Positions 20,970 through 27,382 of a DNA stretch of 64,000 nt are shown here, piece by piece. Location of the stretch: positions 62,001 to 126,000 of the forward strand of contig NZ_PUEC01000003.1 in assembly GCF_003024805.1 (NCBI RefSeq), written 5' to 3'. A program made the translations under genes and the position numbers. Position 1 is the first letter of the stretch. Each line of letters begins with the position of its first letter. The stretch is from Duncaniella muris. GTDB taxonomy: Bacteria; Bacteroidota; Bacteroidia; Bacteroidales; Muribaculaceae. The notes beneath the pieces are model-generated. The model searched no databases, was not told where the DNA came from, and was given only the letters and a program-made list of their open reading frames with translations.

Positions 20970-21065
20970 CTCCTGACAGCCCTGCCTCGGAGAGGCTATG
21001 TTTTCGAGACATTTAGGAGAGTTGCGATCTCATCCGAACCCCGCCTTGTCGGACACCCGACGTCT

Positions 21066-21203
21066 GTGGTGCCATCCGGGGCGGTAAATCGGTGTCCTTG
21101 ACCGGACACCACATTTGTTTGAATGTCTTTTATCCCCCGACACCTACGCGCAATGCGCTGCGGTGTCGGGGGCTACTATTAAATCGGTGTCCTGCCGGAC
21201 ACC
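21066..21203 (-). repeat. Inverted arm L with three hairpins
   Basis: Read on the minus strand this 138-bp arm aligns with arm R over its full length with almost no gaps. It holds three potential hairpins: ggtgtcc-ggca-ggacacc (21186-21203), an 11-bp stem cccccgacacc/ggtgtcggggg (21134-21144 with 21162-21172) and an imperfect copy of the first at about 21090-21110. GATTTA follows the first and third hairpins. Confidence 0.75.
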
Positions 21204-21397
21204 CGCTGACCGGAGACCCTCCGGCCCCCCGTCATCCACGGCCCATCCGGACACACTTTGTCTGACCCCCGCTGACCGCAGACCCTCCGGCCCCTGCCAT
21301 CCACGGCCCATCCGGACACGCTTTGTCTGACCCCCGCTGACCGGAGACCCTTCGGCCCCCGCCATCCACGGCCCATCCGAAACCCGTTTTGTCTGAC
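21202..21397. repeat. Three 65-66 bp tandem repeats
   Basis: Units begin at 21202, 21268 and 21333, each with cccgctgacc and running through ccatccacggcccatcc to a ttgtctgac-type end. The period changes from 66 to 65, which shifts any reading frame, so they are unlikely to encode a repeat protein. Confidence 0.8.
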
Positions 21398-21421
21398 TCG
21401 TTTCAGTCTGTGGATCTGTCT

Positions 21422-21477
21422 GTGTCAAGCTTGCGCGTGTTGGTCCGGATTTGTCCGTGTCAAGCTTGCGCATGTTG
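21422..21477. repeat. Short direct repeat, 35-bp period
   Basis: gtgtcaagcttgcgcgtgttg (21422-21442, given here only as landmarks gtgtcaagc...gtgttg) recurs at 21457-21477 with one mismatch. It fills the gap between the tandem repeats and arm R. Confidence 0.6.
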
Positions 21478-21522
21478 AGACCGGATCTATTCGGGCCACG
21501 CAGCGCGCTGAGACCGGATGGT

Positions 21523-21657
21523 GATGTCCGTCAGGACATCGGTTTACTCGTAGCCCGTGACACCGCAGCGCAAAGCGCGCAGGTGTCACGGGTTTGGAAT
21601 TCCCACCTGCATGTGGTGTCCGGCAGGACACCGATTTACCGCTCCGGATGGGGTTCC
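21523..21657 (+). repeat. Inverted arm R with three hairpins
   Basis: Plus-strand counterpart of arm L. It starts gatgtccgtcaggacatc, continues with an 11-bp stem cccgtgacacc/ggtgtcacggg (21554-21564 with 21582-21592), and ends ggtgtccggcaggacacc then GATTTACCGCTCCGGATGG. Paired changes in the 11-bp stem relative to arm L keep it base-paired. Confidence 0.75.
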
Positions 21658-21694
21658 TCCGCATTATCGCACTATTTTCGGGGGTGGCGTGGTG

Positions 21695-21702
21695 TATATT
21701 TG
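21695..21702 (+). promoter_or_regulatory. -7 element of the small gene at 21728
   Basis: TATATTTG, 25 bp before the ATG at 21728, in a short AT-rich stretch after the repeat island. It supports a transcribed gene with that start. Confidence 0.5.
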
Positions 21703-21727
21703 CAAAAATTATAAATTTTTGTGCTCT

Positions 21728-22336
21728 ATGAAACCCACCATCCCCCAGGACCTCCCGGTCTCGAAAAAATTTTATACCCGTCTGAGTGACAACATCCGCT
21801 CGGCCATCGAGTGCGTCAGCTGGACCGGGCGTACAGCCTCATATTACGAAACTATGGAGGCCATCAACATCTATCTGGTCCACCGTATTGAACCCGCAGG
21901 TGACATCTCGACAGACTCCCTGCTGATCTTCTATCTGCTCCGCCCCGACATAGACAAAGCCGTAGAACGCTCCCGCAAGGCACGCGAAAGCGCGGCCCGA
22001 CGGCGCCGGGCAAAGAAGTCAGTTTCTGATGAAAAGGGTAATAGCTTGTCAGACAGTGAATCACATTCCGACCATGCGGGCGAACGAGGCCGGTACCGGA
22101 GTGGAGAAGTTCATGTCCTTCCGGGTCATCGGATGGATAAAACGAAGCGTCTGAGCATGAAGTGCCATACGGTGAATGGGCGAACTTTTCGCCCCGTAGC
22201 GGCGATCGCCGGCAATGGGGTGACCAAGATCTTTCATATGGACACGGATCTGGTTTTTGCGTCCGGTGTCCAGAGAGACCTCCATCAGCGAATACCCGTT
22301 GCGCGAGCGCAGGGTCCGGTAACGCGTAACGGCTAA
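21728..22336 (+). CDS. Hypothetical protein, C-terminus antisense to the pseudouridine synthase gene
   Basis: The frame encodes 202 residues. The first ~105 look like a real small protein (MKPTIPQDLPVSKKFYTRLS, then CVSWTGRTASYYETMEAINI), ending in a basic stretch ARRRRAKKS. I do not recognise a named family. The last ~90 residues lie antisense inside the pseudouridine synthase gene, a 276-bp convergent overlap, and lack the character of the first part. A +2 shift near 22045 would meet a TGA at once, so a frameshift or lost stop may have extended the protein. The frame also opens upstream of 21728, but a promoter element sits just before this ATG. Confidence 0.55.
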   Translation: MKPTIPQDLPVSKKFYTRLSDNIRSAIECVSWTGRTASYYETMEAINIYLVHRIEPAGDISTDSLLIFYLLRPDIDKAVERSRKARESAARRRRAKKSVSDEKGNSLSDSESHSDHAGERGRYRSGEVHVLPGHRMDKTKRLSMKCHTVNGRTFRPVAAIAGNGVTKIFHMDTDLVFASGVQRDLHQRIPVARAQGPVTRNG

Positions 22337-22990
22337 CTGTCCCTCCTCAGGCTTATCGGTGGAATAGACTTCAAAACGCGAATTTTCAGCAAGATAGCTG
22401 CGCACTTCCCCCTCTTCGGATTCCGGACGTCCCTCCACAACCGCAAGATACTTGCGGGCAATCACCATATTGTTCCAGTTGTGCTGGAGCTTGTCTTTGG
22501 CCTCCTGGCTCTTGGCGAAGACCATCAGTCCGGATGTGTCGCGGTCGAGACGGTGAACTATGAAGAGCTTGTTGCGCGGGTCCTGCCATTTCAGATATTC
22601 GCGCAGTATGCTGTAGGCCGTCCCTTCCTTGATCTTGTCAGTGCCCATTGACAGCAGTCCGTAGCCCTTGTTGACCACTATGATGTCATCGTCTTCATAG
22701 ACCAGCTTAAGACGGCGGTTGTAGAACACGCGGAACTCGCGGGTGAGATTGGCTTTCACCTCGTCGCCGGCCTTCAGCGCCATGTCAAACTGGGTGGTCG
22801 GAATGCCGTTGACTGCTATCTGGTTGTGGCTCAAAAGATTCTTGATCGCTGTGCGTTTGCGCTGAGGCATCGCGCCGATCAGAAATTCAAGAAGTGCGGC
22901 CTCCTCGGCCACCTGATAGGTTTCGATTACATCGGGCTTGAACTTGTTGCGTTCGGCGCCCGGCTTGGTTGAATATGTTCTTTTGGCCAT
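22061..22990 (-). CDS. RluA-family pseudouridine synthase
   Basis: A 309-residue RNA pseudouridine synthase. An S4-type RNA-binding domain occupies about residues 25-90, followed by the catalytic motif VHRLDRDTSGLMVFAKS with the nucleophilic Asp. A C-terminal DTGRKNQIRVHMKDLGHPIAGD completes the family signature. The S4 domain and RluA-type motif fit RluD-like enzymes acting on 23S rRNA, but the target cannot be fixed from sequence. It starts 50 bp after topA and is probably co-transcribed. Its 3' end is overlapped by the plus-strand small gene. Confidence 0.9.
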   Translation of the reverse strand: MAKRTYSTKPGAERNKFKPDVIETYQVAEEAALLEFLIGAMPQRKRTAIKNLLSHNQIAVNGIPTTQFDMALKAGDEVKANLTREFRVFYNRRLKLVYEDDDIIVVNKGYGLLSMGTDKIKEGTAYSILREYLKWQDPRNKLFIVHRLDRDTSGLMVFAKSQEAKDKLQHNWNNMVIARKYLAVVEGRPESEEGEVRSYLAENSRFEVYSTDKPEEGQLAVTRYRTLRSRNGYSLMEVSLDTGRKNQIRVHMKDLGHPIAGDRRYGAKSSPIHRMALHAQTLRFIHPMTRKDMNFSTPVPASFARMVGM

Positions 22991-27167: not shown

Positions 27168-27276
27168 TGGTGTAGTCGGTCCGTTGATAGAGCGCGGACT
27201 CTCTTAATCGGTCTTATTGGGGATTCTGTACAGTGATATCCGCAGACGGTGATAAAGGCCGACGAGGCGGGGGATG

Positions 27277-27308: not shown

Positions 27309-27382
27309 TGACTCCTACAGGATTCAAACCTGTAACCTTCTGATCCGTAGTCAGATGCTCTATTCAGTTGAGCTAAGGAGCC
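27309..27382 (-). tRNA. tRNA-Arg (anticodon ACG)
   Basis: A 74-nt cloverleaf. Acceptor GGCTCCT pairs with AGGAGTC (one G-U pair); the D-arm is AGCTCAACTGAATAGAGC; the anticodon loop CTACGGA contains ACG; the T-arm has GGTTTGAATCC. The discriminator is A, and CCA is not encoded. ACG is the substrate of TadA, encoded nearby. It has its own promoter and terminator. Confidence 0.95.

Follow-up and report, generated by a model that had tools for sequence, protein, structure and literature searches.

Dispersed REP/BIME-like hairpin doublets in a Duncaniella muris genome, with arms that adjoin IS200-type transposase genes in relatives

The window, as we call the whole 64-kb stretch of Duncaniella muris DNA that was analyzed, carries a 758-bp island (20970-21727) in which two arms, 21066-21203 on the minus strand and 21523-21657 on the plus strand, are inverted with respect to each other. 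Aligned end to end, the arms were identical at 108 of 131 positions with 11 gapped columns, and folding as single-stranded DNA returned three main hairpins in each (z = -5.8 and -5.9 against 200 shuffles). Tandem repeats were present with a period of 65 (21198-21397, 3.0 copies) and of 35 (21412-21488, 2.2 copies), and TGTCCGG recurs five times in the island, counting both strands, and 13 times in the 64-kb window. In all of this, as in the lack of a transposase in the island, the original prediction made from the sequence was borne out. Its description of the locus as gene-free has to be limited: an open reading frame for a small protein, of the family termed VSxKFY here, begins at 21728, right behind the second arm; the 3' part of this frame (21728-22336, plus strand) overlaps a pseudouridine-synthase-like gene at 22061-22990 on the minus strand. 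The arms are typed by their central stem, in which either CCCCC (Y) or CCCGT (Z) stands before GACACC, and the features of the locus are as follows.

21066/21067-21203, minus strand: Y-type arm (CCCCCGACACC...GGTGTCGGGGG) with three hairpins, from profile search, fold and pair counts
21186-21203, minus strand: inner box hairpin GGTGTCCGGCAGGACACC of the Y arm, then GATTTAATA, from sequence and fold, conserved in 50 arms
21134-21176, minus strand: GTAG tag (21173-21176) and REP palindrome (21134-21172) of the Y arm, from sequence and pair counts
21091-21110, minus strand: outer box hairpin of the Y arm, then GATTTACC, from pair counts, fold and terminator scan
21204-21522, no strand: inter-arm spacer with the 65-bp tandem repeat and the 35-bp-period repeat, of lesser length and other sequence in a near MAG, from repeat finding and comparison with a near MAG
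21523-21656/21657, plus strand: Z-type arm (CCCGTGACACC...GGTGTCACGGG) with three hairpins, from profile search, fold and pair counts
21550-21592, plus strand: GTAG tag (21550-21553) and REP palindrome (21554-21592) of the Z arm, from sequence and pair counts
21615-21632, plus strand: outer box hairpin GGTGTCCGGCAGGACACC of the Z arm, then GATTTACC, from sequence and pair counts
21660-21702, plus strand: outward promoter-like tail, with CGCATTATCGCACT at 21660-21673 and TATATTTG at 21695-21702, from motif searches
21728-22336, plus strand: open reading frame of the VSxKFY small-protein family, a neighbor and not a proven part of the element, from the frame itself and a family search

A further palindrome, GCCTCGGAGAGGC, lies at about 20984-20996; it is terminator-like in the window and recurs near element ends and elsewhere, including the stretches L024 and L092.

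The nucleotide search of the window's own genome that the original prediction had proposed returned 118 matches to the island, a dispersed family, with 40 of 53 first-look candidates scored, so that the counts are lower bounds. The genome comprises 3.27 Mb in 79 contigs. A profile of the two arms was run on the window and on 33 stretches around the island matches and the one Y1 transposase gene of the genome. At least 52 arms of 60 bits or more were found, as 19 doublets and 14 singles at 32 places in total, one single adjoining a doublet (L024), besides at least five weaker fragments (L036-L038, L040, and L042). Every doublet is inverted, and 18 of the 19 combine a Y with a Z arm, the remaining one being Z with the one-base variant CCCTC. 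The orientation is (-)(+) in 17 doublets, whose arms are 35-330 bp apart, and (+)(-) in two. By a simple call of open reading frames at 30 places (all but L016 and L026), 19 elements lie between convergent genes, eight between co-directional and two between divergent genes, with one unclassed, and five of the 30 overlap a possibly spurious frame of at least 120 aa. Plasmid or virus origin was rejected, as the island had no match in 72,556 plasmid records and its exact pattern none in a viral contig collection.

Each arm, of about 135 nt, holds a palindrome tagged with GTAG or ATAG and flanked by two hairpins, each ending in GATTTAC or a close variant of it. Along the arm come a box hairpin, GATTTAC or a close variant (GATTTAAT in many Y arms), GTAG or ATAG, the palindrome, a linker, and a second box hairpin followed by GATTTAC or GGTTTAC. 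The palindrome measures 39 nt plus the tag, compared with about 135 nt for the conserved arm with its two extra hairpins; the criterion for a GTAG REP/BIME unit is 20-50 nt. We aligned 50 of 54 arms; the four left out were two fragments (L040 and L042), a partial arm at L019, and a tandem arm at L024. The central stem is preceded by GTAG or ATAG throughout, with T, A, and G invariant. Standard pairs made up 99.0% of the 1388 pair cells, and changes on both sides were seen in eight of the 28 pairs, such as columns 37/69 (C-G in 24 arms, G-C in 24) and 38/68 (U-A in 25, C-G in 24), so that the paired changes of the central stem noted originally were seen again across the family. The covariation check yielded 88 double-change cells against a shuffled mean of 27.8 and 1-2 in slid controls, although the structure was derived from the alignment on which it was tested and inheritance inflates such cell counts. 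One-sided (wobble) changes were confined to three cells, and further pair types did not exceed shuffles in these 50 arms (12 versus 13.7). This scarcity of wobble changes would fit DNA palindromes better than RNA stems. Taken together, the anatomy appears to be that of REP/BIME (REPIN) elements.

On the Z side, the sequence continues into CCGCATTATCGCACT at about 10 places, counting fragments and up to three mismatches; these continuations mostly carry a TAnnTTTG box, the promoter box of Bacteroidetes, and several have the tail GAAGTTCTTTCCGATATGGATTT. The motif CGCATTATCGCACY occurs in the window's own genome 21 times exactly and 31 times with at most one mismatch, and never read backwards. 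It precedes all nine VSxKFY genes, once with a mismatch. These genes (the window's frame at 21728-22336 on the plus strand, L044-L050, and L052) encode small basic proteins with the pattern VSxKFY...RSxxAR, and the family was found in eight of 119 genomes of the bacterial family. The window's protein had no significant family match in Pfam or NCBIfam, nor had the L045 protein in NCBIfam or PHROGs. Three of the nine genes lie beside doublets. Most simply, a doublet would have landed once in front of a VSxKFY-type gene, and its copies would have carried the promoter along. The arrangement of CGCATTATCGCACY before a TAnnTTTG box (21660-21702 in the window; 31 places) is common to VSxKFY genes and others, among them an amidase-like gene and an exodeoxyribonuclease VII-like reading frame, and a motif like it stands ahead of some VSxKFY genes in relatives.

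Among 84,980 species genomes, from which records near the window's own genome were possibly left out, the exact core pattern was found in only one other MAG, from an uncultured member of the Muribaculaceae, in 37 stretches. The flanks of its elements are mostly 90-97% identical to the window's genome, and G153 is probably the same genome as this near MAG. As read from a table of flank matches, 29 of 40 near-MAG elements, at loci chosen by exact pattern, share their site with an element of the window's genome by at least one flank; three map to places without an adjoining element, and eight were unmatched. G153 also carries this doublet and its neighboring gene at the window's site. Because the near MAG shares most sites, the family is taken to be mostly inherited rather than freshly moving; it is old and, in the window's lineage, apparently orphaned. 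At near-MAG locus L104 the Y arm is nearly identical to the window's, and since the spacer at this same site is shorter and without the 65-bp repeats, those repeats are local and outside the arm family. No clean empty site was found when the flanks of four elements (L010, L013, L019, and L032) were searched in G153 and G034; at the one locus aligned in detail (L010) a relative has a deletion derivative, and at L019 G153 has a longer insert. In G177, a more distant species, the protein matches of two window neighbors lie about 195 bp apart with neither arm nor VSxKFY gene between them, which shows absence and not a junction. Near-MAG arms (L119 and L114) lie near window positions 27266 and 35863, where the window has none, one of them close to a tRNA gene (27309-27382), although the comparison is not clean owing to a contig end or an unmatched flank. 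The left flank of near-MAG locus L095 best matches L024 of the window's genome and its right flank L031, a mix that suggests recombination between copies.

A covariance model of the arm matched 36 of 247 genomes of the bacterial family, the window's own included, in 13 of 30 genera, with no more than 13 candidates scored per genome. The Y1 transposase family PF01797 matched 149 of the same 247 genomes. Some Y1 gene was present in 31 of the 36 arm-bearing genomes versus 118 of the 211 others (Fisher P = 0.0004), a comparison of related genomes in which PF01797 takes in every Y1 clade and the window's own genome, with its non-cognate gene, is among the 31. We then fetched 40 Y1 loci from 23 arm-bearing genomes, which are not all of their Y1 genes. 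An arm adjoins the Y1 gene at 19 of these loci, or at 15 of 36 without the four that had been chosen for an adjacency already visible; the count used 63 of 66 model matches, leaving out three weak antisense overlaps at L154 and L168. Both sides of the gene bear arms at 15 loci, arranged as (+)gene(-) whichever way the gene points. The signature Y---Q--HH was found in 39 of the 40 fetched genes, 19 of them arm-flanked and 20 without such arms, and the two Y1 genes lacking it (L181, and L041 of the window's genome) have no arms. In a tree of 41 Y1 proteins the arm label needed four changes against a shuffled mean of 13.8, with none of 500 shuffles as low, and all 13 members of one clade (support 96/88) were arm-flanked.

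Arms away from transposase genes were most similar to transposase-side arms of the same genome in G128 (7/7), G101 (8/9), and G142 (2/2), but in only 3/9 cases in G130 and 1/7 in G170, where the Y1 genes were partly fetched. The 14 close inverted pairs seen in the 40 short stretches from relatives, in which distant pairs would be missed, are all (+)(-), abutting or slightly overlapping, and look like (+)gene(-) arrangements from which the gene has gone; the order thus differs from the mostly (-)(+) doublets of the window's genome. Inverted flanks of Y1 genes exceeded the 95% point of mismatched controls at 17 of the 19 loci with arms and at 12 of the 19 others, with two loci dropped for short flanks and a cut-off that is rough because the controls include related loci. 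Where Y1 genes lack arms of this type, inverted flanks of another kind are often seen, for example AACCGCGGGTGAAGCCCGCGG (L151, L152, L155, L158, L169, L175, L178, L181, L182, and L184-L186), hinting at further REP-like families.

All 19 arm-flanked TnpA proteins carry Y---Q--HH. Each of the 11 tested passed the IS200 model NF033573 (60-77 bits, cut-off 55) and failed the REP transposase model NF047646 (24-33 bits, cut-off 80). The solved structures nearest to an arm-side TnpA were the TnpA of ISHp608 (IS608) and one listed as "transposase," which we take to be ISDra2. By its sequence, the arm-side enzyme would fit TnpA subclass 1.2. Members of this subclass are described as generally lacking typical end structures (PMC6006769), whereas here inverted GTAG/GTAA hairpin arms flank genes that share their Y---Q--HH motif. 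In the same source, the Y1 transposases to which REPs are tied belong to class 2 and perhaps to class 3 (PMC6006769). No cognate TnpAREP/RAYT of class 2 (Y---NP) was found in the window's own genome, and the flanking TnpAs of relatives have Y---Q--HH instead.

The closest known systems are the GTAG REPs, BIMEs, and REPINs with TnpAREP (RAYT), such as the Y and Z REPs of E. coli. They resemble the family described here in their GTAG-tagged imperfect palindromes, in many mostly intergenic copies, in inverted heterotypic doublets, and, for the relatives, in arms adjoining a Y1 HUH transposase gene (REPtron-like). They differ in that their transposase is class 2 (Y---NP) where ours is class 1 by Y motif and IS200 model (Y---Q), and in that the palindrome here lies between two further hairpins of a 135-nt arm. 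The original statement that no known family came to mind therefore stands in part: the design is that of GTAG REPs, while the transposase next to the arms is of IS200 type. One survey places GTAG repeats in Proteobacteria, Cyanobacteria, Chloroflexi, and the PVC group, and only CGTC repeats in Bacteroidetes (PMC3733652). GT[AG]G REPs of subclass 2.4 are reported from Bacteroidetes too (PMC6006769), and therefore a GTAG tag in the phylum is not new by itself. Class 3 and subclass 2.6 likewise have Y1 genes flanked by unusual structures copied elsewhere in the genome, but class 3 is described with the Y motif Y----Q and the foot CnGA, and subclass 2.6 with Y---NP and no GT[AG]G consensus (PMC6006769). 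IS200/IS605 elements (IS608, ISDra2) share with the arms the sequence class of TnpA, in relatives only, and a hairpin whose 5' foot bears a tetranucleotide, with TTAC adjacent; unlike theirs, the arms here are inverted about the gene (15 of 40 loci) and many copies are gene-less. The ends of IS200/IS605 elements are not known to be inverted repeats of each other, and the target of IS608 is TTAC. Our literature search, from which subscription journals were mostly absent, found no paper on REPs of Muribaculaceae.

The cognate transposase was absent from the 79 contigs of the window's own genome, between which a small transposase contig lying amid repeats could be missing. The sole Y1 gene found there (C26, L041) was rejected as the cognate: it shares 25% identity with an arm-side TnpA, its branch in the tree is very long, and it has no arms. 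No match to that arm-side TnpA was found in G153 or G054, and G034 gave a single match at E = 0.7. More widely, five of the 36 arm-bearing genomes had no PF01797 match. Orphan REPs as such are already known (PMC6006769, PMC8049555).

Could the doublets instead be internal-deletion derivatives (MITEs) of an unusual IS200-like insertion sequence, with the arms as its ends, moving as whole (+)(-) units? The gene does sit between (+) and (-) arms, and the close doublets of relatives are such arms abutting. We nevertheless hold this for a minor possibility, as the window's genome has mostly (-)(+) doublets plus 14 singles, tandem arrays are built of single-arm units, and the ends of IS200/IS605 elements are described as subterminal hairpins (PMC6006769). 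More doubtful still is that the arms are functional RNAs or bidirectional transcription terminators selected for host use, their dispersal being secondary; the structured-RNA option of the original prediction belongs here. Such a role could account for the 19 of 29 classed elements between convergent genes by the simple call of reading frames, and for two terminator-like sites near the island (0.7 in shuffles), one of which is the outer box of the Y arm. That option is weakened, however, by pair changes that are nearly all Watson-Crick swaps (88 double changes versus three one-sided cells) and by Rfam, where no family reached threshold and the sole match, Clostridiales-1, scored 23.4 bits against 48 and was taken as chance, a known RNA thus being rejected; it would also go unexplained why two stem types are paired and why transposase genes adjoin the arms in relatives.

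Least probable, in our estimation, is that the VSxKFY gene or its promoter is the real mobile unit with which the doublets were spread along. The three VSxKFY genes adjoining doublets, the roughly 10 Z sides that have the promoter motif of the gene family, often without the gene, and the joint absence of arm and gene from the window's site in G177 are what such a history would produce. The gene was nonetheless rejected as mobilizer, since none of 24 VSxKFY loci of relatives had an arm and arm-bearing genomes such as G002, G007, and G015 had no match to the gene family.

We consider it probable, rather, that the island is one copy of a family of dispersed REP/BIME-like hairpin doublets which was spread in trans by an IS200-type Y1 transposase, the cognate having since been lost. 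Copy number, structure, heterotypic pairing, and arms adjoining IS200-type (HUH, Y1) genes in relatives are the observations behind this explanation, and from them we infer that such a transposase mobilized the arms. Of the identities offered originally, a REP/BIME-like or non-autonomous mobile element is thus upheld, given the many mostly intergenic copies, the strong covariation, the heterotypic doublets, and the transposase neighbors in relatives. The arms would be of the REP kind and can be expected to function as REPs do, but the defining TnpAREP partner was looked for and not found; they were likely mobilized by a subclass 1.2 transposase and are apparently orphaned here.

The manner of spread may be reflected in three tandem arrays, in G230 (L262), G007 (L271), and the window's own genome (L024), whose units join after TTTAC, followed by 1-2 nt and then GTAG, GTAA, or ATAG, junctions suggesting single-strand insertion. 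GTAA is the reverse complement of TTAC. In the IS200/IS605 family the foot of the hairpin bears a guide tetranucleotide, which interacts with a target tetranucleotide next to the end (PMC6006769). GTAG is reported to contribute to recognition by TnpAREP and, for the Marinomonas system, to the choice of cut site (PMC8266576). In the mechanism we propose, TnpA would fold the arm on single-stranded DNA, use GTAG/GTAA as a guide, and cut and join at TTTAC, which would be both cutting and insertion site, so that arms would spread in trans as single-stranded DNA. The window's lineage would then have lost the cognate gene and inherited the doublets as relics, which may have been retained as borders or terminators where convergent genes meet. 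We lean somewhat toward the broader proposition that Muribaculaceae have separate REP systems driven by IS200-type (class 1, subclass 1.2) transposases, with GTAG/GTAA-tagged arms, a TTTAC cutting site, and single-stranded copying in trans.

If that proposition is true, these systems would either stand midway from insertion sequences to REP-RAYT systems or represent a second origin of REPs, and the repeats of the window's lineage would have outlived their transposase. A REP-like family beside subclass 1.2 genes would shed light on the way in which the transposase of an insertion sequence comes to generate dispersed repeats, and matched genomes with and without the gene are available for asking whether REPs persist once the enzyme is gone.
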